Source of the DNA: Bacteroidales bacterium | GTDB taxonomy: Bacteria; Bacteroidota; Bacteroidia; Bacteroidales; P3 | Assembly (NCBI GenBank): GCA_024400565.1 | Contig: JAKSMQ010000001.1 | Location: 28,057-92,056, forward strand | Direction of reading: 5' to 3' | DNA: 64,000 nucleotides | Shown here: positions 2 to 51,942 of the stretch, one piece after another | How the letters are laid out: the number at the start of each line of letters is the position of its first letter | Position numbering within the stretch: position 1 is the first letter of the stretch | The notes under the pieces: model-generated | Database searches by the model: none | The model's input: the letters and a program-made list of their open reading frames with translations, nothing else | What the model was told of the DNA's origin: nothing | Position numbers and translations under genes: made by a program

Positions 2-2683
2 AAGGCAGAGGAAGAGCCCGTTCCCGAACCCGAAGTTCCTCAGGCAGAAGAGCCCCAAGTTGAAGAACCCAAGGCGGAGGAGCCCAAGGCTGAAGAGCCC
101 GTCGAAGAGACTCCCAAGTTTGAGCCTACCGTCATCAGCGCAACCGTAGCTGGTGCCAAGGAAGGCAAAGAATCCTTCAACGCCGAGCTCCGCATAGTAG
201 ACAAGATTGACCTCTCCTCGCTCAACGAGAAGACCCGTCCTGCCAAGAAGTCGAAGAGCGAAAAGAAAGCCAAGAAGGCCGAAACCAAGCCTGCAGCCGA
301 AGAGAAACCCGTCGAGGAGAAGGCTCCCGTTGTTGAGGAGACTCCCGCACCCGTAGTAGAAGAGGCTGTGGTTGAAGAAACTCCCGTAGTGGAAACCACA
401 CCCGAGCCTGTTGCAGAGACTCCTGCTCCAGAGCCCGAGAAAAAGGTAGAATTCGTTCCTACCCAATACACCAAACTTGAAGGTCTCAAGACCGTCGGCA
501 AGATTGACCTCTCCCAGTTTGCCAAAGAGAAGGTCTCCCCCGCCGAGAAGCGCAAACGCAAGCGCATCAAGGGCGAAAAGGTTGACCAGAAGGCTGCTGC
601 CGAGAATGTAGCCCGTGGCGACAAGAAGGAAAACAAGCCTGCCAAACCCAATGGCGGCAACAGCGATGCCCAGAAGCCCAATCCCAACAACGATCCCAAC
701 CGCAATAAGGATAAAGCTAAGGAGAAGAAGAACAGAGACAAGAAGGCAAAAGGCAAAGAGGTAAAGGTTGAGGTTGACGAAGCCGAAATCAAGAAGCAGA
801 TCCAGGACACCCTGGCACGCCTCAGCCCAATGGGCAAGTCCAAGACTTCAAAGCACAACCGCGAGAAACGCCAGAAGGTTCAGCAACGTTTTGAGGAGGA
901 GATGCTCCACGAAATGGAGAACCAGAAGACCCTCCAGGTGACCGAGTTCGTTACCGCCAACGAGCTGGCTACTATGATGAACATCCCCGTCACCAAGATT
1001 ATCGCTACCTGTATGTCGGTAGGTATCTTCGTATCCATCAACCAGCGTCTCGACGCCGAGGCCATCAAGCTTATTGCTGACGAGTTCGGATTTGAGATCA
1101 ACTTCGTATCTACCGAGGTTGCAGAAGCTATCAACAGTATTGAGGAGCAGGATAATCCCGAGGACCTCGTGCCCCGTACTCCTATTATTACCGTAATGGG
1201 TCACGTTGACCATGGTAAGACCTCTCTCCTTGACTATATCCGCAACACCAACGTTATCGCCGGCGAGGCAGGTGGTATTACCCAGCACATCGGAGCTTAC
1301 GAGGTAACCATGCCCGACGGACGCAAGATTACCTTCCTCGACACCCCTGGTCACGAAGCATTTACCGCTATGCGTGCCCGTGGTGCCAAGGTAACCGATA
1401 TCGCCATTATCGTTATTGCTGCCGACGACAAGATTATGCCCCAGACCATTGAGGCTATCAACCACGCTCAAGCCGCAGCCGTACCTATGGTATTTGCCAT
1501 CAACAAGATTGATAAACCCGGCGCAGACCCCGACCGCATCAAGACCGAGCTTGCCAATATGAACCTTCTCGTAGAGGAATGGGGCGGTAAGTATCAGAGT
1601 CAGGACATTAGCGCCAAGAAGGGTATCAACGTTGACCAGCTGCTTGAGAAGGTACTCCTTGAAGCAGAAATGCTCGAGCTCAAGGGCAACCCCAAGAAGC
1701 GTGCTAAAGGAACCGTTCTTGAATGCTCTCTCGACAAAGGCCGTGGCTATGTTGCCAAACTCCTTGTCGAAGATGGTACTATCTCTCAGGGCGATCCCCT
1801 CGTAGCAGGTCCTATCTCCGGCCGCGTTAAAGCGATGTACAACGAGCGTAACCAGCTTGTCAAATCAGCAGGTCCCTCCCAGCCTGTACTTCTCCTCGGT
1901 CTCACAGGTGCTTGCCAGGCAGGCGACACCTTCAATGTTACCGAGAACGAAAAAGAGGCCAAGGACATTGCTGCCAAACGCCAGCAGCTTGCACGCGAAC
2001 AGAGTCAGCGTACTACCGGACGTCTTACCCTTGATGAGATTGGACGCCGTCGCGCACTTGGTGACTTCCACGAGATCAAGCTCATCGTTAAGGGCGACGT
2101 GGACGGTTCCGTAGAGGCTCTCTCCGACTCTCTCATCAAGCTCTCTACCGAAGAGATTCAGATTAATGTCATCCACAAGGCTGTGGGACAGATTACCGAA
2201 GGCGACGTTCTGCTTGCTGAGGCTTCCGACGCTATTATCATCGGTTTCCAGGTCCGTCCTTCCGTACAGGCTCGCCGCAACGCAGAAGAGAAGAAGATTG
2301 ATATCCGGCTCTACTCCATCATCTACGACGCTATCAACGAGCTCCACGATGCAATGGAAGGTATGCTTGCTCCCGAGACTCAGGAGAAGATTGTTGCCAA
2401 TCTCGAAATCCGCGAAACCTTCAAGATTTCCAAGGTGGGAACTATCGCCGGATGTATGTGTCTCGACGGAAAGATTCAGCGTAGCCACAACGTACGTATC
2501 ATCCGCGATGGTATTGTAGTCTTCACCGGAAAACTTGCATCCCTCAAACGATTCAAGGATGATGTCAAAGAGGTTGTATCCGGCCAGGATTGCGGTCTCA
2601 ACATCGAGAACTTCAACGACATTAAGGTCGGCGATATTGTTGAGGCATACGAGATCATCGAAATCAAGCGTACGCTTAAATAA
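2..2683 (+). CDS. infB: Translation initiation factor IF-2 (5' end outside window)
   Basis: IF-2 is the GTPase that brings initiator tRNA to the 30S subunit and promotes subunit joining. The frame is open from base 2, so the gene is truncated by the window edge. The first 450 bases encode a low-complexity Glu/Pro/Lys/Ala-rich region with repeated EEPKAEEP-like strings. A KIDLS motif followed by a basic stretch occurs twice (near nt 205-260 and 500-560), as in the long N-terminal extensions of Bacteroidota IF-2. The G domain follows, with P-loop GHVDHGKT at nt 1199-1222, DTPGHE near 1340 and NKID near 1502. Domains II, III and the C-terminal initiator-tRNA-binding part run to the TAA. A GTG at 368 lies inside the reading frame and is not the start. 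A strong terminator follows. Confidence 0.97.
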
Positions 2684-19624: not shown

Positions 19625-19731
19625 AGCTTTTTCGTATTGGATGGGTAATAATAACGGAAAAGGAGTGCAAATATTGTAGTCCGGGACAGAAAAAACGTCT
19701 CCTTATATTCTTCACCTTCTTACAAGCGCCT

Positions 19732-19840
19732 AGACAGCATATAGACAGCATATAGGCAGCACCTAGACAGCACACAGGCTCCACCAAGGGTCGTAAAACC
19801 GGGCAGAAAGCCGAGCCTAAGTGGAGGCTATGTGCTGCCT
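19732..19840. repeat. Inverted array A of 11-nt units (AG-N4-CACAT family)
   Basis: Lies in the 454-bp divergent gap between the NagB/PIG-L gene and the C10 protease gene. Left arm, in exact 11-nt register from 19732: AGACAGCATAT, AGACAGCATAT, AGGCAGCACCT, AGACAGCACAC, AGGCTCCACCA. Right arm: AAGTGGAGGCT (19819) and ATGTGCTGCCT (19830), the reverse complements of such units. The core is 19787-19818 (32 nt). No ORF is supported in the rest of the gap. Confidence 0.75.
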
Positions 19841-20036
19841 ATAACGAGAGAAGAGGCTGTCTGGCGACCGGAAAAAGAGTATATTTTTGGCCCTACAGAA
19901 CGAAACATTCCGGAATGACTGGCCGAGGTTCTAAATACGATTTTCGGGAACCACACTAATTCATATAGTTACAAAAATATTTTGTTAAAAAATCAATAAT
20001 AATCGGCCAAGTAATACTAAAAAGAAAAAAAAATAG

Positions 20037-20078: not shown

Positions 20079-21599
20079 ATGAAGAAAATTACTCTTTACT
20101 TGGGTGTTATAGCCGCCCTCGTGTTTGGCCAGACCAGCGCCAATTTGCTTCGTGCCGACAATATCGACGTGAACAAAGCCCGCCAACTCGCTGCTAACTA
20201 TATGGCAGTTCAGACCGGCCAGAAAAACCTTTCGAGCAACGACCTAAAACTCGTTTATGAGATTCCCAACGTAGAGCAGGGTGTTGCAGCACTCTATTTT
20301 TTCAACACCAGTAATGGTGGCTTCGTAGTTATGTCAGCCAGCGATTGCATGGACCCCGTTCTTGCTTATTCTACCGAAGGTGTTCTCGACCCCAACAACC
20401 TTCCTCCCGCCATGCTCTGGTGGATGAATGGCTATGCCAACACCATCTGCTACGCTCAGAACAACAACCTCACTCCCGATGCCGAGGTTAAGGCTATGTG
20501 GAACGAACTGGAAAGAAAAGACATCCGTCCCGACGAGCCTAAGGCTATCTACAAGACTATGACTTCTGTATGGAATCAGGACTATCCCTACAATATCTAC
20601 AGCCCCAAGGTAAACGGCGAAAGATGCCCTACCGGTTGTGTTGCAACCGCTATGGGTCAGATTGTCCACTATTGGAAGTATCCCGTTAAGCCTAAGGGTA
20701 TGGTCAACTATCAATACACTTGTGGATCGACCAACACCTCTCATACCCTTGGCGTAAATTTCGACACCGTCAAGTACGACTACTCTCTTATGCCCGACAC
20801 AGCATATCGCGGATATTCCAACCAGACCTGGTGGAACGATGCTCAGATTCGCGAAGTTTCCAAGTTAAACTACCACCTCGGTATCGCCAACCGTATGAGC
20901 TACGACCTTGAAGGTAGCGGAGCTCAATCTGGCCGTTATACCAAGAACGCTTTCGTCAACTACTACAAATATCGTAGCAACACCATCAAGGAACTTGACC
21001 GTTCCAACGCTTTCTGGGCTAACAACACCACTACTCCCAACGCAAAGGACACCCTTTGGGTAGATACTCTTGCTAACGAAATCAAGAACAAGCGCCCCGT
21101 ATTCTACACCGGATATGATATTTCTTCCTCCGGAGTACATGCCGGCCACGCTTTCGTTCTCGAGCGCTTCAACACCACCACCTTCAAAGGCTGGTTCAAC
21201 TGGGGTTGGGGCGGCAGCGGCGACTGCTGGTGCAACATTGTTAAGTCTGCCCTCAATACCGCAGGCTACAACTTCAGCAACAACCATAACGCTATTATCG
21301 GCATTCAGCCTCCCAAAGATTCCATCAACACCGGCAACGTAGGCATCACTACCATAAGCCAGGAGATTGAAATTCTTCCCGCTTATCCTAATCCTGCCAA
21401 CACCTGGATCAACATTCCCTACAGCCTTGGCAACAACACCAGCGCTCTCCTTCAGATCTTCGCTATCGACGGCCGACTCATGGAACAGCGTACCATCTAC
21501 TCCAGCTCCAACAAAGCTGCTGTAAATGTAGAAAGCTATCCTCACGGCATCTATGTATGTCGCATCGGAGGCATCAGCCGCAAGTTTGTAGTTGAATAA
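20079..21599 (+). CDS. Secreted C10-family cysteine protease with T9SS C-terminal signal
   Basis: A 506-residue streptopain-like (SpeB/interpain) protease. It has a signal peptide at residues 1-26, a propeptide of about 130 residues, then the catalytic domain with nucleophile Cys187 in ERCPTGCVATAMGQ and His357 in HAGHAFVLE, plus the family WFNWGWGG motif (372-379). The last 80 residues form a Por-type type IX secretion signal (YPNPANTW, then IFAIDGRLM, then a GIYVCRI strand and FVVE end). It should be exported across the outer membrane by the system that includes SprA (encoded at 44460). Family members degrade host or dietary proteins; the substrate here is unknown. Confidence 0.93.
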   Translation: MKKITLYLGVIAALVFGQTSANLLRADNIDVNKARQLAANYMAVQTGQKNLSSNDLKLVYEIPNVEQGVAALYFFNTSNGGFVVMSASDCMDPVLAYSTEGVLDPNNLPPAMLWWMNGYANTICYAQNNNLTPDAEVKAMWNELERKDIRPDEPKAIYKTMTSVWNQDYPYNIYSPKVNGERCPTGCVATAMGQIVHYWKYPVKPKGMVNYQYTCGSTNTSHTLGVNFDTVKYDYSLMPDTAYRGYSNQTWWNDAQIREVSKLNYHLGIANRMSYDLEGSGAQSGRYTKNAFVNYYKYRSNTIKELDRSNAFWANNTTTPNAKDTLWVDTLANEIKNKRPVFYTGYDISSSGVHAGHAFVLERFNTTTFKGWFNWGWGGSGDCWCNIVKSALNTAGYNFSNNHNAIIGIQPPKDSINTGNVGITTISQEIEILPAYPNPANTWINIPYSLGNNTSALLQIFAIDGRLMEQRTIYSSSNKAAVNVESYPHGIYVCRIGGISRKFVVE

Positions 21600-27828: not shown

Positions 27829-27933
27829 TTATCTTGGTTTATCTATGTTTTTTCCAGAAGTGACCTGCATAGACCAAGGAGGTTTATCTATGTTTTTGTC
27901 TAAGAGCGACCAGGAGCAGAAGGAGTTTTTCAT
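27829..27933 (-). CDS. Candidate small ORF with a repeated KNIDKP motif
   Basis: A 34-residue frame (start ATG at 27933, stop TAA at 27829) preceded by a perfect -7 box TACTTTTG on the minus strand at 27983-27990. The peptide contains KNIDKP twice because it reads through two copies of the 45-nt GTTTATCTATG repeat. It may be a real small peptide, a transcript leaving the MITE-like element, or coincidence. Confidence 0.25.
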   Translation of the reverse strand: MKNSFCSWSLLDKNIDKPPWSMQVTSGKNIDKPR

Positions 27934-27982
27934 AGGTTTTTGGGGATTGATGGTTGGTGAGGTTTGACTTCGAAATCGTTTG

Positions 27983-27990
27983 CAAAAGTA
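27983..27990 (-). promoter_or_regulatory. Promoter-like -7 box (TACTTTTG) reading out of the MITE-like element
   Basis: Exact TAnnTTTG match on the minus strand inside the element, directed toward its left end. Confidence 0.4.
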
Positions 27991-28223
27991 CCAACTTTTT
28001 CTCTCGCCGTGGGACGTTTGGGGAACGGATGGGAAGGAATCTTTTACGGCTCATCTCAATCCCTTCGCAATCATCTTGATTGGCTAGGGGATAGAATACC
28101 CTTTTTTATCCTTCGGGTCGCGTCCTGGGCGCGAAAAGGCCTTCAGGAGCCCGTTCATTTCGCAGATTTTGAAGAGGAAACTGGGGCTGATTCAGGATGG
28201 ATGAAGGCTTACAGAATAGTTGT

Positions 28224-28299
28224 AGATAGCACATAGATAGCACAATGGGTGCAGAAAACCAGTCATCTACGCGTTTTGCGTGCCGAGTATGTGCTGTCT
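28224..28299. repeat. Inverted array D of 11-nt units
   Basis: Left: AGATAGCACAT (28224) and AGATAGCACAA (28235) in register. Right: ATGTGCTGTCT (28289), the reverse complement of AGACAGCACAT. It is the shortest of the four arrays and sits in the middle of the MITE-like element. Confidence 0.6.
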
Positions 28300-28574
28300 G
28301 AGTGCCGAGAAAGACTTCGCTTCTGACAGGATTAAGATTTTTAGTCCGGATTTTCAGTTGGGATTTTATCTGTTGGTCGCCTTTTAGACAAAAACATAGA
28401 TAAACACGGGCCGACATTTGTCTTCGATATTGTATCGGGGTTTGTCGGCGAATTACGATGTTGGCAGAATATTATGCGACAATACAATCCGGCAACAAAT
28501 GCAATAGCGTTTAGGCTAGCGGCCAGGGTTTATCTTGGTTTATCGCCTTTGGAGGGGCTTGGCGGCTGAGGGGG

Positions 28575-28612
28575 CAAGTTTTTCCGGGAGCTTGCTCACG
28601 AGGGAAAACTTG
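28575..28612. repeat. Hairpin in the accessory zone
   Basis: CAAGTTTTTCC (28575-28585) pairs with GGGAAAACTTG (28602-28612), an 11-bp stem with one T-G wobble. No T run follows in either direction. The surrounding 28406-28668 holds no supportable gene. Confidence 0.45.
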
Positions 28613-28668
28613 AGTCCGCAGATGCCGAAGATGCGAAGCAGCTTCAGAAGAGAAGCCCTTTCAAAGGA

Positions 28669-28745
28669 TGTTTATCTATGTTTTTTTCTACAATCAACCC
28701 GACCTTGACCAAGGGGGTTATCTTTGTTTTTTTCTAATTTGACCC
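28669..28745. repeat. Tandem copies of the 45-nt GTTTATCTATG repeat
   Basis: Two units beginning at about 28670 and 28717 (GTTTATCTATG and GTTATCTTTG, each followed by a T run, TCTA and a GACC motif). The same unit occurs in tandem at 27836 and 27881, inverted at 28371-28405, and as a fragment at 28527-28545. It overlaps the 3' end of the pseudogene on the minus strand. Confidence 0.55.
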
Positions 28746-29058
28746 ACTCATCGTAGAGGTCGTTCTTGCAGTCCATGCGCGCGTTAGAGAGTGTTTCTAC
28801 CTGATTGGACAGTTGACCCTCATTTCCGCCGCTGTCGGCTACTAAATTTGCCATCATACCATCCGTTTCCAGCCCTGAAAGGTCAGAATTCCGGAGTTGG
28901 CCGTTACTCACATAAGTCTCCAAAATGAGGAACAACATCGGCAAAATGAACTCTTAGATGCCTTTTGAGACCTGCAAAAGGAGAATTTTGAGGTCTTTTG
29001 AGCCCTATTTGAGCTCTGGCATCTTAGGAGGTTGGGGTTTAGTAATGTCGTATTTCAT
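28675..29058 (-). pseudogene. Decayed N-terminal fragment of a DUF3987-like gene, copy 1
   Basis: From an ATG at 29058 the minus strand reads MKYDITKPQPPKMPELK, then TAG, then GSKDLKILLLQVSKGI, then TAA, and stays open through MANLVADSGG and EGQLSNQVETLSNA to a stop near 28675. As I recall them, these phrases are the N-terminal hallmarks of the DUF3987/primase-like proteins common in Bacteroidales mobile regions. Two in-frame stops and loss of the C-terminal two thirds show it is dead. A diverged second copy lies upstream. Confidence 0.65.
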
Positions 29059-29096
29059 TGTTGTTGTGCTTCTTAGGGAAATATTATATGTGGTTA

Positions 29097-29252
29097 GCGT
29101 TTCAGTTTCAGTTGTTTCAGTTGTTTTTTGAGGGGTATCAATATCATCTATTCCTATATATCTATTTAATTATTAATTAGTTAAGTATTCTATAAGGGGA
29201 TATTGACATAGCATTTTTTAATTGAAACACTGAAACATTGAAACGCTGAAAC
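29097..29252. repeat. Inverted 8-nt array element 1 (GTTTCA type)
   Basis: The left arm has three GTTTCA copies between 29099 and 29119. The right arm has four TGAAAC copies at an exact 8-nt period (29223, 29231, 29239, 29247). The arms flank a core that starts GAGGGGTATCAA and ends with AAGGGGAT and a poly-T. It sits between a gene-end fragment (minus strand, peptide AFECFVEK then stop, near 29271-29300) and the start of pseudogene copy 1. Confidence 0.65.
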
Positions 29253-29315
29253 AAAAATGTCTTACTTCTCTACGAAGCATTCGAAAGCCTGTGGTACATC
29301 AGTATAAGCCTTCTA

Positions 29316-29584
29316 CTAACACGCAACCTGATTTGACAATTGATCCTTGTTACCGCAATTTTTGCCATCAGACTGGCCATTATTCCACACGATTCCTTTC
29401 AATTTTGGTTGGGATAGAGATATTGGGGTTCGGTCATATTTGCATCCAAAATAGGAAAAAGCATAGGTACAAGGGGCTGATTCATGTCTTTTGAGGTCTG
29501 AGAAAGGATTAATTTGATGCATTCTGTGCCCTTTCCGAGGATAGGCATCGTAGGAGAATGCCTTTTAGTGATATCATAATTCAT
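29316..29584 (-). pseudogene. Decayed N-terminal fragment of a DUF3987-like gene, copy 2
   Basis: From ATG 29584 the minus strand reads MNYDITKRHSPTMP, then QTSKDMNQPLVPMLFPI, then YPNQN followed by TGA. The homologous reading continues past the stop (KESCGIMASLMA), then shifts frame to NCGNKDQLSNQV and ends. It is the same gene segment as copy 1, with one stop, one frameshift and a truncated end. Confidence 0.65.
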
Positions 29585-29624
29585 TGTTCTACTGTTAGAT
29601 ATTTTTAATTGTTAAAAATTTTAC

Positions 29625-29772
29625 GTATCAGTATCAGTGTGTCAGTCCGATTTTTGAGGGGTATCAACTTCCCTTTTATCTATATAACTATCTATATATT
29701 AATATTATAGATATTATTATAGAGGGGATTGTGATGCATTTTTTTTGGACTGATACACTGACACACTGATAC
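29625..29772. repeat. Inverted 8-nt array element 2 (GTATCA/GTGTCA type)
   Basis: Left arm GTATCA (29625), GTATCA (29631), GTGTCA (29639). Right arm TGATAC (29751), TGACAC (29759), TGATAC (29767), at an 8-nt period. The core is like element 1 (GAGGGGTATCAA then AT-rich then AGGGGAT and poly-T). The position relative to the gene fragments is the same: the preceding minus-strand fragment ends AFECLGEK then stop (29811). Confidence 0.65.
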
Positions 29773-29829
29773 GCTTTTCTTGTAACTTGCTCTTGCTGAG
29801 TCTTATTTCTCTCCGAGGCATTCGAAGGC

Positions 29830-30192
29830 ATGAAGGAGATCGTTGATGAGTTAGAGGATATAGGTTTTCTCTACGAAGCCTGGCCCCATATGGAGTCGCT
29901 TGAAGTTGAAACGGGGCTGACCGTCGCATCTGCAGAAGGGAGAGGATTAGATATTACAGCCAGAGCAAACCGTCTGACCGATATGGAATCAAACTAAACA
30001 ATTGTAAATCTAAAAAAATCGTATCTTTACAATTCCTTTTACAGGACCAGCAAGAATATCTACACATTCATCAGCAAGGCGATGAATGAGCTTGAAGAAG
30101 ATGGCGTGAAGGTTATCAATAAAGACAAGGCTAGAGCTAACGCAGAGGCCGTTTACGAAGCATCCCGCAAGGCTCAGGCTATGGCCCTCTAA
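29830..30192 (+). pseudogene. Interrupted open frame of unknown type
   Basis: A plus-strand frame from ATG 29830 is interrupted by one TAA (29995-29997) and then continues in the same frame to a stop at 30190. The downstream part reads like true coding sequence (FYRTSKNIYTFISKAMNELE, then charged helices ending AQAMAL). I do not recognise it. The upstream half may be chance, since it overlaps the end of a minus-strand fragment. A TATCTTTA box lies near 30030. Confidence 0.35.
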
Positions 30193-42007: not shown

Positions 42008-42118
42008 CAGCTCGTTAAGACATCTGCCTTATAAAACAAACCGATCCCCGATTTACGAAACCTGCTCCCGAAACTGCAGGAGATTATTCCTTGCATTCTC
42101 TTCCGGGAGAAAATCTCC

Positions 42119-42249
42119 AGACAGCACATAGGCAGCATATAGACAGCACTTAGCGTCCACTTAGCGTCCACCTAGGGTCGGGGTAGCGTCCACATTGCCT
42201 CGCAAAAAACGTTCAAAACAGGACGCAATGTGCTGCCTAAGACGAGTCT
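42119..42249. repeat. Inverted array B of 11-nt units
   Basis: Seven left units in unbroken 11-nt register from 42119: AGACAGCACAT, AGGCAGCATAT, AGACAGCACTT, AGCGTCCACTT, AGCGTCCACCT, AGGGTCGGGGT, AGCGTCCACAT. A 21-nt core (42196-42216) follows. The right arm has AACAGGACGCA (42217), ATGTGCTGCCT (42228) and AAGACGAGTCT (42239), reverse complements of such units. It fills the 350-bp gap between the M64 gene and the beta-helix lipoprotein gene; nothing else is visible there. Confidence 0.8.
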
Positions 42250-44459: not shown

Positions 44460-47400
44460 ATGAAAGCAAGAACAGCAACAAACAAGTATCGGTTTACCAC
44501 CTGGCTGAAGAGTCTGGTGGCGATAATGCTATTCTTGCTGACAACCGGCATAGCCATGGCTCAGGACGATGGCTGGCGTCCGTCCAACAAGACCGTCGTG
44601 GTTGAATATGATGCCAAAGACAACTCCTATGTCAAGATTACCAAGATAGGAGATATGGTCATCAGCCGCGAATACATGACCTTTGACGAATACCAGGAAT
44701 GGCAGATGGGACAGCTGATGCAGCAATTCTGGGATGACAAGAAGGCCAATTCCAAATCCGATATTGGAGGCGAAGGACTTCTGAGCAAGATTCCCGGATT
44801 TAGCGAAATAAGCCGCAAGCTGGCTGCTCTCGACGGAGAGCCCCTCATCAAGATTGAACCCACCGGAACGGCCGACCTTACCTTCCAGGGCATCTATACC
44901 CATACCGAAGACCCTAGCCGCGATGTGCGCCAACGTCGTCATTTCAATTTTGATTTCGACGAGAACCTCCAGCTTGGAATCAACGCCAAAATCGGCGATC
45001 TGTTCGACTTCAATCTTAACTGGAACACTCAGGCGACCTTCGATTTTGAGAACAAGATTAAGCTCAAATACGAAGGCAAAGAGGACGACATTCTCCAGCT
45101 TTTCGAAGCTGCCGACATTTCCTTCCCCCTCAATACCACCCTTATCAAGGGTAGTCAGCAGCTGATGGGATTCCACACCAAGCTCAAATTCGGACGGCTC
45201 ACTATCGATGCTGTACTGAGTCACAAGAACACAAGTACGGAGAATATGCAGATGCAGGGAGGAGCCAGTACCAAAGAATTTGAGATCAGGGCCGACGAAT
45301 ATGAGGAAAACCGACATTATTTCCTTGCCCAGTATTTCTACGACAACTACAACAAGGCTATGAGCACGTTGCCCATAGTCAACTCCAATATCAAGATTCT
45401 GCGAATGGAGGTTTGGCGTACCAATGTGGGTGCCGCCGTCACAAACAACCGAAACCTCCTTGCTCTTACAGATCTTGGCGAAGCCGACCCCTCCTCTACC
45501 ATCGTTACCGGTATCGGAGCCCATACAGGTGAGACAACAGTCAAGCCCACCAACTCGGCCAACAACCTCATCGCCAGCGGAACGGCCGGAAGCGCGCTCA
45601 TCAATACCTCCACCATACGAAGCATCAATAGCGTAACCTCTTATATGCAGGGATTGGGCCTCACAAGTGGTACCGACTACGAGAAGATTGAGAGCGCCCG
45701 TCTGCTCAACAGTTCCGAATACACCTACAACAGCCAGCTGGGTTTCATTTCGCTCTCCCAACCCCTTGCCAGCGACCAGATGCTTGCTGTTGCCTTTCAG
45801 TATCAGGTTATCGGAGACACAACCGTATACCAGGTAGGAGAGCTCACAACCGATGGTGTCAACGACCCCAACACTCTTGTCGTCAAGCTTCTCAAGAGTA
45901 CCAGCAATAACGTCCACAGCCCGATGTGGAAGCTGATGATGAAGAACGTATACTTCCTCAAAAGTACCCAGCTCAGCCGCGAGAATTTCCGTTTCAACGT
46001 ATTGTACGAGAGTCCCGAAAGCGGAGTAGGTATCGGATATTTTACCGAAGGTCCCAAGGAAGGGAAGCCCTTGATAGAGGTTCTTGGTCTCGACCGCATG
46101 GATGCTTCCATGAATTATTATCTCCCCGATGGTGTGTTCGACTGGATGGATAGCGCAGCCTATAAGGGTGGTACCATTCAGGCAAATAGCGGACGCATCT
46201 TCTTTCCTATGGTAGAGCCCTTCGGTAAGGACCTGAGGAAGATTCTGGGCGACGAACTTGCCGACCAATACTGTTTCGATTCGCTCTACACCATGACTCA
46301 GACCCTGGCCCGACAATATGCCGACAAGAACAAATTCTACCTCGAAGGATACTATAGCAGCTCTGTAAGCGGCGAAATCAGCCTTGGCTATAGCGTTACC
46401 CAAGGTAGCGTTACCGTAACAGCCGGAGGTATGCCCCTTATTGAGAACGTAGACTATACGGTAGACTACACTATGGGTACAGTACGAATCATCAACGAGA
46501 GCATTCTCTCTTCCGGCACACCCATAAGCGTCAGTAGCGAGAACAACTCGTTCAGTATGACCACGAAGGATCTAGTCGGAGCTCATCTCGATTATGAGTT
46601 CGCTCCAGAAATTCATCTGGGTGCCACCTTTATGAATCTGAGAGAGAAAGCCCTCACAACCAAAAACAACTTTGGAGAGGAGCCCACGAGCAACTCCATC
46701 TGGGGTCTTGACTTCAATTACAAACACGAAGTTCCTCTTATTACCAAGCTGGTCGACCTTCTTCCCGGCATACAAACCAAAGCCCCCTCTACCCTGACTT
46801 TCCAGGCCGAAGTAGCTCAATTCCTTCCCAGCATGGCCAATACCGGAGCCAACGAAAAGAATGTATCCTATATTGACGACTTCGAAGGCGCCGAAAGTAG
46901 TATAGACCTGCGTACACCCGGATTCTGGTTCCTGGCAAGCACGCCTCAGGACTATTCTTCATCCATGCCCATGTTCCCCGAATCTGCCATGGGAACGGGT
47001 CTTGCCTACGGAAAGAACAGAGCTCTCGTAGCATGGTATCGTATCGACAACCTCTTCTACAATGGTTCCAGCCCCGCAAATATCACACGCGAGGACTTAA
47101 GCCGCCCCTATGCTCGACGCATTCTTGAAACAGAAGTATTCCCCAACAAGCAGCATTCTGTGGGTGACCCCATGAATGTATACGAACTCAACCTAGCCTA
47201 TTATCCTTCCGAACGTGGTCCCTATAACTATGACGCGGCACCTACGCAATATAGTGCAGGCGTAAATGCCGACGGTTCCCTGGCTAATCCGGCCAGCCGC
47301 TGGGGAGGTATTATGCGACAGCTTGACTATACCGACTTCGAATCTCAGAATATAGAAACCATCGAGTTCTGGCTTATGGACCCCTTTATGGATCCTGTTA

Positions 47401-50400
47401 CCGGAGAGCACGATGACACCCGAACCGGAGGCAAGCTTTATTTCAACTTAGGCGACATCAGCGAGGATATTCTCCGTGACGGACGTAAGTTCTTTGAGAA
47501 TGGTATGCCTCCCAGCAACAACCCGGCCGACCTTGAACAGTATCCTGTCGACACTACCATATGGGGACGCGTTCCCAAGACCCAAAGTATCGTCAACGCC
47601 TTCGTCAACGAAGATGCAGCCCGAATGTATCAGGATATCGGATACGACGGACTGGGAAGTACCAACGGACTGGGTGACGAACAGAGTTTCTTTGCAGATT
47701 ATCTGCATGAGATTCAATTGTTACATGGTACCAGCTCTCAAGCTTACCAGATAGCCAGCAACGACCCCAGTACCGATAACTTCCGCTATTTTATCGACCC
47801 TGAATGGGACGCTCTTGATGCTAAGGTCAACGATCGCTATAAATACTATATGAACCCTGAGGGTAACTCAGCCTCACAGGAGAATTCTACAGGCGTTCGT
47901 ACCCAAGGTACGTCTATCCCCAACATAGAAGACATTAACAAGGACAATACCCTCAGCGAGGCTGAAAACTATTACGAATACGCCATCGACCTGCGTCCCG
48001 AAAAGATGCAGATCGGACAGAACCATATCGTGGATATACAAGAGGCAACCAACATCCAACTGGCAGATGGTACGATTGCCCCATCTGTACGCTGGTACCA
48101 GTTCAGCATTCCTATCCGAGAGCCAGACCGTACCGTGGGTAATCTTAACGGATTCCAGAGCATACGTTTCATGCGTATGTTCCTCAACGAATTCCAGGAT
48201 CCTATTATCTTACGTTTTGCTACCCTTGAACTTGTTTATGGTACCTGGCGCAAATATAGCGAGTCTTTGCTTCAGCCAGGAGATTATACTACCGGTTCAG
48301 ATGCCAACACTTCGTTCACCCTCAGCACCATCAACTACGAGGAGAATGGTTCACGTCAGCCTGTTCCCTATGTGCTGCCTCCAGGAATTGAACGTGAAGA
48401 ATGGTACAGCACAGGCAACTCCTATATCCAGCTCGACGAGCAGTCTGTATCTATGGACATCCAGGAGTTATCTTCTGGTGACGCAAGAGCCATCTACAGA
48501 AATTCCCAATACGACCTTCGCTACTATGGCAAGATGAAGATGTTCGTCCATGCTGAGAAGAAGTTTGAAGCCGACAATCTGCGCGACAACGACCTTTCTC
48601 TCTTTGTACGTTTGGGTAGCGATTTTACGAACAACTATTATGAGTATGAGGTTCCCCTCAAGTTCACTCCCTGGGGTACCCCATCCAGCGACCCGTATTC
48701 TATCTGGCCTACAGAGAACAACGTAGAGATTGACCTTACCAAGCTTGTTGACATCAAGACCAACCGTAATACCAAGATACGTTCGGGAGATTTGGAATAC
48801 AACTCAACAATGCTCTACTCCGAGTTTGTTGACGGCCACAAATATACCGTATTAGGAACACCCAACCTGGGTAAAGTCAAGGTCATTATGATTGGCGTCC
48901 GCAACCCTAAGAAAGAGACGCTTACCGACGGAAACGACATGTTGCCCAAGTCGGCAATAGTATGGATTAACGAATTACGACTCAGCGAATACCACAACAA
49001 GGGCGGATTCGCAGCCATGGCCCTTGCCCGTACCAATCTTGCCGACGTAGGAAGCCTGTCTCTGTACGGAAACTATACAACGGCTGGTTACGGAAATCTT
49101 GAGGATAATATCAACAAGCTTGAACTTATCAATAACCTGAAACTACAGAGTACCCTACAGTTTGAAGTAGGTCGATTCTTCCCCGAAGATTGGGGGGTCA
49201 AGATTCCTTTCTATCTTGATGTAAACAAAGATATCGGAAGTCCCGAATACAATCCTCTTGACCCTGATGTAATCCTCAAGGATGACCTCCGGACCTATCA
49301 GACCAAGGCCGAGCGAGACAGCATCAAACACATGACGCAACATCGCAAAACCACCACGAATCTTACCCTTACCAATATGCATAAAGAGCGTACAGGCAAA
49401 GGGGCGCTCAAACCTCATTTCTACGACATCGAGAACTTTGCTTTCTCCTATGCCTATAGCGGAGAACGTTCGAGCGACGACGATATTGATCACTTCAACA
49501 AGGACCAGCATCGAGGCGGTTTTACTTATAATTTCTCATTCTCCCAGCCCAAACAATTCAAGCCTTTTGAGAAATCAAAGACCTTCAAGGGCAAAAACTG
49601 GAAATTCATGCGCGACTTTAATCTCTATTACCAGCCACGCAGTTTCAATTTCGCAACCGAAGTATACCGCGACCGCGAGGAAACCCTCCTTCGCAATAAG
49701 GGCCAGGCACTTGTCATAATTAATCCTACCTATTTCAAGCAGTTTACCTGGCGACGCGACTATGGTTTCCAATACGATATTGCACGTAGTCTCAAGTTCC
49801 AATATGATGCAAATGCGAACGCACGTATAGACGAACCTCCCGGACTTGTAGAAACTCGTAGCGCTACCGACTCTATCTGGATGTCTATTCTTGATGGCGG
49901 AACCATGCAGAATTTCCGTCAGAATGTCAACATCTCCTGGGATGTTCCCGTAAGCAAGTTGCCCTATATGGACTTTTTGCGTATGCCCGTAACCTATCGC
50001 ACAACCTACAACTTCCTAGGAACAACACAGGCGCTTGCTTCACAGGGTTCTACCCTAACCAACTCTACTACCTTTAACGCGACTGTTACGGGTACTATGA
50101 CCAGCCTCTATAGCAAGTTCCCGCTCCTGAAGAAAGCTAACGCAAAAAGACCACCCAAGAAGGCAGACGACAAGAACAAGAAGGGTAAGGACAACGACAA
50201 GGATAAGAACAAGACTAACGAAAAACGCGGTCTGAAGGATTCGAAACAGACCGAGCGTGATGCCGCTATTGCAGACTCCTTGCGTCGTGAGGAAATCAAA
50301 GAGATGTGGCGACAGGTAGGATACTTTGGTCTTCGCCTGGCTACAAGCCTCAAGTCGTTCAACATGCAAGCCAATATTACAAGCGGCTCGCGCGTGGCAG

Positions 50401-51704
50401 GATATATGGGAGAGCCCTCAATACTTGGTCTTGACCCATCCAATTTCTGGACTCCAGGTCTGGGATTTGTTCTCGGAAGTAGCGAAAGTATTGTAGACAA
50501 TCTCCGCAACAACGACCTGTTGTCGCGTGATTCTCTGATGAATGCTCCTCATCAGAACAATCTCAACCGCGTATTGTCCCTCCAGGCTGCCCTCGAGCCT
50601 ATCCGCGACATGAAGATAGACATTACCTGTACGCTGAGCTACTCCTCCAACGAACAATTCTACTACAAGTATTCGTCGATCCTTGATATGGTTGACGGAC
50701 CTTTATCATACACCATGACAGGCTCTTATACCACAACAGCCTGGTCATTCCGTACCGCCTTCCGCAATAGCGACGACCTCTTCCACGAGTTCCTCGACAA
50801 CAGAATGATAGTTGCCGAACGCCTGGCTGGTATGAATTCTGACTCCTATTGCGACAACTATCTGCTCGACACCATGAATGGCCAATACTATCCGGCCGGA
50901 TATGGCGCCAACCAGCAGACCGTGCTTCTGACCTCCTTCCTTTCAGCCTATATGGGCGGAAGCGCAAGCACACGGAGTTTCTCGCCCTTCTTCAGTCTGC
51001 CTCTTCCCAACTGGAGCCTTAACTACAACGGTCTCAGCAAGATTGAATTCCTGCGCAAGTGGTTTACCAACATCAGCATCTCCCATCGTTATTCCTCGAC
51101 CTATAGCATAGGAAGTTTCTATACAGACGCAGCCCTCTCGGCTGCACGAGGCACTTACGACTATGGTTCGGAAAGCATAATTAACTCAAGCGGAGATTTT
51201 ATAGCCCCTGTCAGCATGGAGGGAATCACAATTGCCGAGCAATTCAACCCTCTCCTCAAGCTATCGGTAAGCATGGTTAACTCCTTGCAGTTCAATCTCT
51301 CAATACAGAAGAACCGCAACCTCCAACTCAGTTTCTCCAACAACCAGCTGACCGAAACGACACGCGATGGAGTAACCTTCGGAGGCGGTTATCGTTTCAA
51401 GGATGTAGAAATCCATCTTAAGGCCGGCGGCAAGCCCCGCGACCTCAAGAGCGATGTGCTCATCCAGCTCAATCTTACCTACAACAACAACAAGACCCTC
51501 ATCCGCAAGATTAACCAGGGTACCGACCAGATAACCAGCGGCTCGCAGGTATGGATGGCCGAGATTTCGGGCGAATATGCCGTATCGTCTTCCATTACGG
51601 TAAAAGCCTTCTTCCAGACCAATATCAACACGCCATACATCTCCAACTCCTACCCCAACAGTACCACAAAGGGCGGTATCACAATCCGTTTCGCCCTCCA
51701 GTAA
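44460..51704 (+). CDS. sprA: T9SS outer-membrane translocon SprA/Sov
   Basis: 2414 residues, the largest gene in the window. SprA forms the very large beta-barrel pore of the type IX secretion system. The signal peptide ends near residue 35 (IAMAQ). SprA-type features include TADLTFQGIYTHTEDPS-like opening strands, GINAKIGDLFDFNLNWNTQA, many amphipathic beta strands, and a charged Lys/Asp/Glu-rich insertion at about residues 1900-1940. The C-terminal barrel ends in GGITIRFALQ. The length matches known SprA/Sov proteins (about 2400-2500). It is the machine expected to export the C10 protease at 20079. Other T9SS core genes are not in the window. Confidence 0.96.
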   Translation: MKARTATNKYRFTTWLKSLVAIMLFLLTTGIAMAQDDGWRPSNKTVVVEYDAKDNSYVKITKIGDMVISREYMTFDEYQEWQMGQLMQQFWDDKKANSKSDIGGEGLLSKIPGFSEISRKLAALDGEPLIKIEPTGTADLTFQGIYTHTEDPSRDVRQRRHFNFDFDENLQLGINAKIGDLFDFNLNWNTQATFDFENKIKLKYEGKEDDILQLFEAADISFPLNTTLIKGSQQLMGFHTKLKFGRLTIDAVLSHKNTSTENMQMQGGASTKEFEIRADEYEENRHYFLAQYFYDNYNKAMSTLPIVNSNIKILRMEVWRTNVGAAVTNNRNLLALTDLGEADPSSTIVTGIGAHTGETTVKPTNSANNLIASGTAGSALINTSTIRSINSVTSYMQGLGLTSGTDYEKIESARLLNSSEYTYNSQLGFISLSQPLASDQMLAVAFQYQVIGDTTVYQVGELTTDGVNDPNTLVVKLLKSTSNNVHSPMWKLMMKNVYFLKSTQLSRENFRFNVLYESPESGVGIGYFTEGPKEGKPLIEVLGLDRMDASMNYYLPDGVFDWMDSAAYKGGTIQANSGRIFFPMVEPFGKDLRKILGDELADQYCFDSLYTMTQTLARQYADKNKFYLEGYYSSSVSGEISLGYSVTQGSVTVTAGGMPLIENVDYTVDYTMGTVRIINESILSSGTPISVSSENNSFSMTTKDLVGAHLDYEFAPEIHLGATFMNLREKALTTKNNFGEEPTSNSIWGLDFNYKHEVPLITKLVDLLPGIQTKAPSTLTFQAEVAQFLPSMANTGANEKNVSYIDDFEGAESSIDLRTPGFWFLASTPQDYSSSMPMFPESAMGTGLAYGKNRALVAWYRIDNLFYNGSSPANITREDLSRPYARRILETEVFPNKQHSVGDPMNVYELNLAYYPSERGPYNYDAAPTQYSAGVNADGSLANPASRWGGIMRQLDYTDFESQNIETIEFWLMDPFMDPVTGEHDDTRTGGKLYFNLGDISEDILRDGRKFFENGMPPSNNPADLEQYPVDTTIWGRVPKTQSIVNAFVNEDAARMYQDIGYDGLGSTNGLGDEQSFFADYLHEIQLLHGTSSQAYQIASNDPSTDNFRYFIDPEWDALDAKVNDRYKYYMNPEGNSASQENSTGVRTQGTSIPNIEDINKDNTLSEAENYYEYAIDLRPEKMQIGQNHIVDIQEATNIQLADGTIAPSVRWYQFSIPIREPDRTVGNLNGFQSIRFMRMFLNEFQDPIILRFATLELVYGTWRKYSESLLQPGDYTTGSDANTSFTLSTINYEENGSRQPVPYVLPPGIEREEWYSTGNSYIQLDEQSVSMDIQELSSGDARAIYRNSQYDLRYYGKMKMFVHAEKKFEADNLRDNDLSLFVRLGSDFTNNYYEYEVPLKFTPWGTPSSDPYSIWPTENNVEIDLTKLVDIKTNRNTKIRSGDLEYNSTMLYSEFVDGHKYTVLGTPNLGKVKVIMIGVRNPKKETLTDGNDMLPKSAIVWINELRLSEYHNKGGFAAMALARTNLADVGSLSLYGNYTTAGYGNLEDNINKLELINNLKLQSTLQFEVGRFFPEDWGVKIPFYLDVNKDIGSPEYNPLDPDVILKDDLRTYQTKAERDSIKHMTQHRKTTTNLTLTNMHKERTGKGALKPHFYDIENFAFSYAYSGERSSDDDIDHFNKDQHRGGFTYNFSFSQPKQFKPFEKSKTFKGKNWKFMRDFNLYYQPRSFNFATEVYRDREETLLRNKGQALVIINPTYFKQFTWRRDYGFQYDIARSLKFQYDANANARIDEPPGLVETRSATDSIWMSILDGGTMQNFRQNVNISWDVPVSKLPYMDFLRMPVTYRTTYNFLGTTQALASQGSTLTNSTTFNATVTGTMTSLYSKFPLLKKANAKRPPKKADDKNKKGKDNDKDKNKTNEKRGLKDSKQTERDAAIADSLRREEIKEMWRQVGYFGLRLATSLKSFNMQANITSGSRVAGYMGEPSILGLDPSNFWTPGLGFVLGSSESIVDNLRNNDLLSRDSLMNAPHQNNLNRVLSLQAALEPIRDMKIDITCTLSYSSNEQFYYKYSSILDMVDGPLSYTMTGSYTTTAWSFRTAFRNSDDLFHEFLDNRMIVAERLAGMNSDSYCDNYLLDTMNGQYYPAGYGANQQTVLLTSFLSAYMGGSASTRSFSPFFSLPLPNWSLNYNGLSKIEFLRKWFTNISISHRYSSTYSIGSFYTDAALSAARGTYDYGSESIINSSGDFIAPVSMEGITIAEQFNPLLKLSVSMVNSLQFNLSIQKNRNLQLSFSNNQLTETTRDGVTFGGGYRFKDVEIHLKAGGKPRDLKSDVLIQLNLTYNNNKTLIRKINQGTDQITSGSQVWMAEISGEYAVSSSITVKAFFQTNINTPYISNSYPNSTTKGGITIRFALQ

Positions 51705-51800: not shown

Positions 51801-51942
51801 AAATACCACCTAACGTCGGCATAGCGTCCACATAAGGTCGACTTTTTAGCCAAATTGTAGAGGTAATGTGGACGCAACATGGACGCTATGTGGACGCTAT
51901 GTGGACGCTATGTGGACGCTACATGGACGCTACAAGGACTCT
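51801..51942. repeat. Inverted array C of 11-nt units
   Basis: Left units AAATACCACCT (51801), AACGTCGGCAT (51812), AGCGTCCACAT (51823), AAGGTCGACTT (51834). A 21-nt core (51845-51865) follows. The right arm has seven contiguous units from 51866: ATGTGGACGCA, ACATGGACGCT, three ATGTGGACGCT, ACATGGACGCT and ACAAGGACTCT. It lies between sprA and the TPR gene; the rest of that 444-bp gap holds no gene. Confidence 0.8.

Follow-up and report, generated by a model that had tools for sequence, protein, structure and literature searches.

Intergenic arrays of inverted 11-nt units keep register and polarity but not sequence in a Bacteroidales genome

In the window, by which we mean the whole 64,000-nt stretch of Bacteroidales DNA analysed here, a gap whose upstream neighbour is an M64-peptidase gene holds a run of 11-nt units, a core and then units of the same kind on the opposite strand (array B), and the question raised by this locus is what keeps such a design in place. 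Array B has the unbroken 11-nt register that a sequence-only reading had described (Table 1), and the core of 21 nt given there holds in the AG...T frame, being equal to 23 nt in the TAG frame used here; this core comes out longer when the stronger units alone are scored. A phase-free scan of the opposite strand placed the second reversed slot at offset +1, on the inner side. The statement that all units share AG-N4-CACAT was too strong: this motif is exact in three of the nine slots (at 42119, 42185 and 42228), the non-exact slots end in CATA, CACT or CACC, the sixth closes with CGGGG, and a degenerate sequence (ACAGGACGCAA) fills the first reversed slot. The same design does occur, as had been proposed, at three other sites of the window (arrays A, C and D), and array D carries extra degenerate slots on both outer flanks (51811-51821 on one side and to about 51943 on the other).

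Table 1. Positions of the arrays and related repeats (window coordinates unless a locus is named)
Feature	Position	Strand	Content
Array B, left arm	42118..42194	+	seven contiguous 11-nt slots, sequence read directly; slot types ACAG, GCAG, ACAG, CGTC, CGTC, degenerate GGTC-GGGG, CGTC
Array B, core	42195..42217	.	23 nt in TAG frame, sequence read directly
Array B, right arm	42218..42239	-	two reversed slots: degenerate TTGCGTCCTGT, then TAGGCAGCACA
Array A	19731..19841	.	5 forward units, 34-nt core, 2 reversed units; divergent genes either side
Array C	28223..28300	.	2 forward units, 45-nt core, 1 reversed unit
Array D	51822..51932	.	1 forward unit, 34-nt core, 6 reversed units
GGCCGAACCCA arrays, same genome	L055 2246-2400; L071 1800-1870; L072 1652-1830; L053 1777; L047 2818		
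TAGGAAGCACA repeats, Pararhizobium	L169 about 1500-1540; L177 about 1500-1525		

Array C has a second copy in a duplicated region on contig C29 (L059); the duplication is a patchwork (window 27893-29925 and L059 121-2137) made of three blocks with ~95% identity and one with 79%, and parts of it recur in L055 and L071. Arrays A and D are flanked by a C10-family peptidase with a type IX secretion tail (20079-21599) and by a SprA-like protein (44460-51704), both ordinary for Bacteroidota. Of the seven proteins scanned beside the arrays of the window, none was an integrase and none matched the ParR/parC-like DNA-binding family (one matched nothing).

These four sites belong to about 50 intergenic arrays in the draft genome (1,894,204 bases in 57 contigs, 71.6% complete). 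The doubt that shuffled sequence might give as many hits is retained in part for the single unit, whose count of 14 in the window is mildly above the 7.7 expected (2 of 100 shuffles were as high), and is removed for tandem unit pairs, which occur 101 times in the whole draft genome (48 forward, 53 reverse) and not once when the pattern is read backwards as a control. Scoring with a weight matrix built from exact unit pairs left 47 arrays above the cut, two of them in L032; visible arrays in L033, L037, L047 and L053 lie below the cut and outside the 47, and the duplicate of array C is included in the 47 and omitted from the arm-matching test, the folding test and the unit-type count. By crude gene calls, the overlap with a gene never exceeds 30 nt in any of the 47. 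They stand between co-oriented (19), divergent (14) or convergent (8) genes, or lie near contig ends with a gene call missing on one side (6), and, with 14 of the 41 two-neighbour arrays in divergent gaps, they are thus not simply terminators. The unit types counted (n = 298) were led by CGTC (147), followed by ACAG (30), AGTC (24), CCTC (20) and GCAG (19), a count biased by the matrix seed, in which some positions were fixed. In the 45 TRF arrays similar to the TAG unit, positions are unevenly conserved, with high values at T1 (0.97), A2 (0.90), C8 (0.94) and A9 (0.90) and lower ones at positions 4 (0.62) and 11 (0.56).

The strict register and inverted orientation noticed in the window hold over the genome. 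With the phase left free, a clear opposite arm (unit score of at least 3) was found in 42 of the 47 arrays, each time at offset +1 on the inner side, and the best opposite-strand unit of any score lies there in 46 of 47. The five arrays in which the best opposite unit scores below 3 are L032 (at 3), L035, L060, L067 and L068; only L068, at a contig end, is off phase, the other four still being at +1. All scored units of an arm share a single phase in every one of the 47 arrays, and the 186 pairs of adjacent units contain 358 differences without any phase shift. Where both arms passed independently (21 arrays), the core measured 12 nt in four cases, 23 nt in nine and 34 nt in eight, and the reversed units started at phase +1 relative to the forward units in all 21. 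The phase of the weaker arm was imposed in the 42 arrays of the arm-matching and folding tests, and was not imposed for the offset counts or for these 21 cores.

Two features, the rarity of small indels and the locking of independently scored core lengths to the grid, lead us tentatively to favour the possibility that these intergenic, dyad-symmetric arrays on an 11-bp grid are kept for their geometry and form a helix-phased duplex platform for cooperative protein binding. A DNA-binding protein would then occupy the duplex at one asymmetric site per helical turn, and its binding would be cooperative and symmetric around the core, as at iteron or centromere arrays. The units and the preference of the protein would co-evolve, slippage and conversion would homogenise the units, and turnover would be fast; nucleoid organisation, segregation and regulation are candidate roles for such a platform. 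The uneven conservation of the unit also speaks for it, as do the differences between paralogous arrays, which amount to 11 or 22 nt, and the inverted layout built from different units in orthologous gaps of relatives, to which we now turn.

At the array B gap (from the M64-peptidase gene to the next gene), 30 loci were compared, 28 of them scorable and two not, and an 11-nt array was called in eight: this genome, G017, G018, G020, G021, G027, G028 and G064. The calls in G021, G027 and G064 are weak (periodicity at 15-16 of 22 positions and a grid read by eye), G020 has its main period at 22, and the contig of G017 breaks off within the gap. The 20 array-free gaps measure 0-124 nt, except for 466 nt in G008. 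In a tree of the upstream protein, G017, G018, G021, G027 and G064 form one group, all marked with arrays, with a support of 93/83 that is below the tree program's own mark; over the tree, the array label needs 4 changes against a mean of 7.2 when shuffled, and 3 of 500 shuffles were as low. Within this group, G021 and G027, which share 93% identity across 10 kb of nearby sequence, are separated in the gap by one 22-nt indel and base changes. The gap at the opposite end of the M64-peptidase gene holds inverted 11-nt arrays with different units in both of the sister species G008 and G019, and the sequence on either side of that gap is 83-84% identical. The expectation that the inverted layout would appear in orthologous gaps was therefore borne out, with other units, in some relatives, and random drift without inverted layout was absent at the gaps with arrays compared; this holds in part only, as 13 of 27 arrays from relatives lack a clear inverted arm and 20 of the 28 scorable genomes lack an array at the array B gap. 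The letters change, and what persists is register and polarity, together with the position in some relatives.

No array of the TAG-N4-CAC unit was found in the 36 same-genus genomes searched. The unit pair (W and S fixed) was absent from 35 of these 36, the three matches in the other, G028, lying in identical stretches that look coding in our own reading, and it was likewise absent from the 24 genomes searched in other families of the order. Tandem repeats of period 11 nevertheless occur 40 times, in 13 genomes, within 1.06 Mb of 21 same-genus genomes, together with period 7 (47), period 8 (16), period 10 (2) and period 13 (1), a density that is no random sample, as part of the stretches were picked around the M64-peptidase gene and some arrays were already known. 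No period-11 array was found in the 259 kb sampled across 20 genomes from other families, of which 12 contributed stretches below 20 kb, down to 0.4 kb, and none in 114 kb of G033, the closest genome by identity of the upstream protein. A significant opposite-strand arm (p <= 0.03) was present in 14 of 27 11-nt arrays from relatives, a hand-picked subset, and conservation along the unit was uneven at p < 0.05 in 3 of the 11 relatives' arrays tested. Intergenic-looking 7-nt tandem arrays were seen in G008, G028 and G033 (L126, L134, L153, L154, L156 and L159).

These surveys also weigh against a protein-binding platform. Several unrelated unit families share the 11-nt period, within G016, within G008 and within this genome, so that one sequence-specific protein could not read them all. 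The 7-nt arrays in other species of the genus, the share of relatives' arrays with a significant opposite arm or with uneven conservation, and the five arrays of this genome without a clear opposite arm count in the same direction, and a constant register and polarity could come from descent from one ancestral array. The wider proposal, of a chromosome-wide element that conserves geometry alone, with one asymmetric site per 11-bp turn in phase on both sides of a dyad, held at orthologous gaps across species while the site sequence is rewritten in concert as in fast-evolving centromere satellites and their binding protein, is less likely than not.

About equally likely is the explanation that the arrays are a selfish or neutral palindromic minisatellite, in which one ancestral inverted 11-nt array was dispersed and the period, polarity and register are inherited rather than selected, while slippage by whole units, template switching at hairpins and conversion among copies maintain the period and the homogeneity. 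Several observations fit this explanation. Five paralogous copies (L041, L049, L055, L071 and L072) lie within longer dispersed repeats, the homology extending past the array. Inside these arrays, the gaps between paralogues measure 11 nt in pairwise alignments (one of them split 9+2 by the aligner and counted as 11) and 11 and 22 nt in the multiple alignment, that is, whole units, whereas the flanks often show gaps of 1-5 nt (260 substitutions and 38 gaps of a length other than 11, summed over five pairs that share sequences and are not independent). The units of both arms differ together between the sister species mentioned above, adjacent units (similarity 0.77) are more alike than units of the other arm (0.65) or random ones (0.59), and the genus holds multiple unrelated unit families as well as the 7-nt class. 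The same explanation does not readily account for the few small indels despite strong substitutional divergence, for cores that look unrelated between most arrays and yet have independently scored lengths locked to 12+11k, for arrays in the same gap in all of the five-genome group (three of the five weak), or for the lack of period-11 arrays in the 259 kb from other families of the order.

The indel comparison, based on TRF arrays with a score of at least 60, bears on both readings. The 30 own 11-nt arrays gave 316 mismatches to 4 indel positions, a ratio which, like the two in-register inverted arms, speaks against an ordinary minisatellite. The corresponding counts were 168 to 11 in 16 11-nt arrays and 111 to 11 in 14 7-nt arrays of relatives, 13 to 8 in three 11-nt arrays of the Bacteroidia draft Co_bin.39, and 322 to 25 in 25 period-22 calls of this genome. 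However, low indel counts are not unique to the family, since two 7-nt arrays of Co_bin.39 gave 108 to 3 and three 8-nt arrays of relatives 21 to 0; the former value, together with the gain and loss of whole units, speaks for an ordinary minisatellite. In the 11-nt arrays of this genome, strand-symmetric substitutions (G-C or A-T swaps) exceed other transversions by about 196 to 114, as calculated from rounded fractions, which we take as a hint only, because they are also raised in the flanks of paralogues (about 47 to 32).

Dispersed repeats of bacteria are mostly identified through their sequence. In the gaps that we compared, unit similarity is largely lost between species and the layout stays, so that ordinary homology searches would miss such elements. 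If the phasing is functional, it points to a large genus having a DNA-binding system that co-evolves fast; if it is not, the arrays clearly illustrate how palindromic minisatellites evolve in concert in bacteria.

A less probable explanation is that the arrays act as RNA or single-strand hairpins, i.e., that transcribed arrays form long imperfect stems with one unit per A-form turn and serve in mRNA stability or termination. The foldable structure suggested by the sequence-only reading is possible: folding against shuffles gave a mean z of -3.9, with 32 of 42 arrays below -2 and the other 10 missing this value, near-perfect stems exist among the arrays of relatives, and swapping arms between arrays makes the pairing slightly worse (p 0.023, 26 arrays), which is weak support. 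Unit types are shared more within the arms of an array than between arrays (0.71 vs 0.59, p 0.0002, 42 arrays), but units at matching positions across arms are no closer than others (0.673 vs 0.672, p 0.47, 26 arrays). The folding and arm tests thus suggest that a stem is possible in most arrays and that precise pairing is not what is kept; the lack of position-for-position pairing speaks for duplex DNA over a hairpin, and a hairpin with position-matched arms was not supported. In addition, a core of 12+11k is unnecessary for a hairpin, and arrays in divergent gaps do not suit this explanation. Rfam matches in the window and nine further loci were to tRNA only, which discards a known structured RNA there. 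Phased intrinsic curvature was rejected as well, since the roll and wedge amplitude at period 11 was not above that of permuted units, the percentiles of 28 units being spread from 0 to 0.94.

Very improbably, the arrays would be a by-product of replication, with 11-nt tandem duplications arising from incomplete removal of RNA primers or from a different enzyme that moves in steps of 11 nt. Primers made by primase measure about 11 nt, begin with AG and vary by a nucleotide or so, and the fixed period with varying sequence agrees with this origin, but such variation in length contrasts with the absence of phase shifts in the 47 arrays, units of several relatives lack the AG start motif in our own reading, and the inverted layout is left unexplained.

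Among the matches listed in our literature search, which covered titles and the starts of abstracts with most subscription papers outside it, no description of an inverted 11-nt array was found, and known systems resemble the family in part. The BrickBuilt MITE of Porphyromonas gingivalis is likewise intergenic, species-specific and made of spacer-free tandem units, with about 20 copies per genome, and has a 23-nt unit in direct repeats between a leader and a tail, with small inverted ends (PMC4596501). Its host probably belongs to the same phylum, judging by the type IX secretion genes in the window. In contrast, the arrays described here have 11-nt units of several types in two inverted arms round a core, with other unit sequences in related species, and we do not assign them to BrickBuilt, lacking as they do its conserved 23-nt unit with leader and tail. 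With respect to MITEs in general, the outer ends of the arrays vary with unit number, and short array-free orthologous gaps exist, with no exact empty site aligned.

REP/BIME elements with RAYT transposases share the many intergenic, palindromic and species-specific copies in alternating orientation and the protein binding sites, while their abstract makes no mention of an 11-nt grid (PMC2817692). Mobilisation of this kind was rejected, as the RAYT (Y1) transposase family PF01797 was not found in this genome (G000, 71.6% complete); it is also absent from the array-bearing G008, G014, G016 (100% complete), G017, G019 and G029, and present in 28 of 41 genomes of the genus. The parC/ParR system of plasmid R1 has 11-bp repeats read by a DNA-binding protein, with family-specific repeat sequences; it is a single plasmid locus of direct repeats beside parM (PMC9426499), whereas about 50 chromosomal loci with inverted arms are found here. 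TAACTGA and other heptamers are abundant, short, intergenic tandem repeats of fixed length, some in Bacteroidetes too, and they are 7-nt repeats of one sequence, nearly all direct and mostly near start codons (PMC4679880), unlike the present arrays with 11-nt units, varied sequence, inverted arms and a position often in mid-gap.

Outside the order, a Pararhizobium contig has tandem 11-nt TAGGAAGCACA repeats resembling TAG-N4-CAC at two sites separated by about 10 kb. By our own reading of sequence and protein, one site precedes an integrase-like gene and each has a tRNA-like sequence nearby. These are possibly integrase arm-type sites; in contrast, the arrays of this genome lie in many ordinary gaps. 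Matches to a three-unit pattern elsewhere (16 stretches on genome contigs and 5 on viral contigs) were not accepted as family members, their number being attainable, by our own estimate, from 11-nt tandem repeats.

Several other repeats were observed alongside. This genome has a second, unrelated family of direct 11-nt arrays (GGCCGAACCCA; Table 1), some copies of which adjoin TAG arrays, and a further 11-nt family, GTACAACCAGT, at L045 2203. Near-pure TAGCGTCCACA arrays stand at contig ends (the start of C2, L032 1-116, and the end of C50, L068 1967-2035), and such long near-identical arrays may break the assembly. Among the 7-nt arrays of relatives, the one at L126 2508-2619 has a visible reversed second arm. 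Finally, one viral contig (L197, about 515-670) carries more than 10 tandem TAGGTTGCAC(A/C) units upstream of a reading frame.
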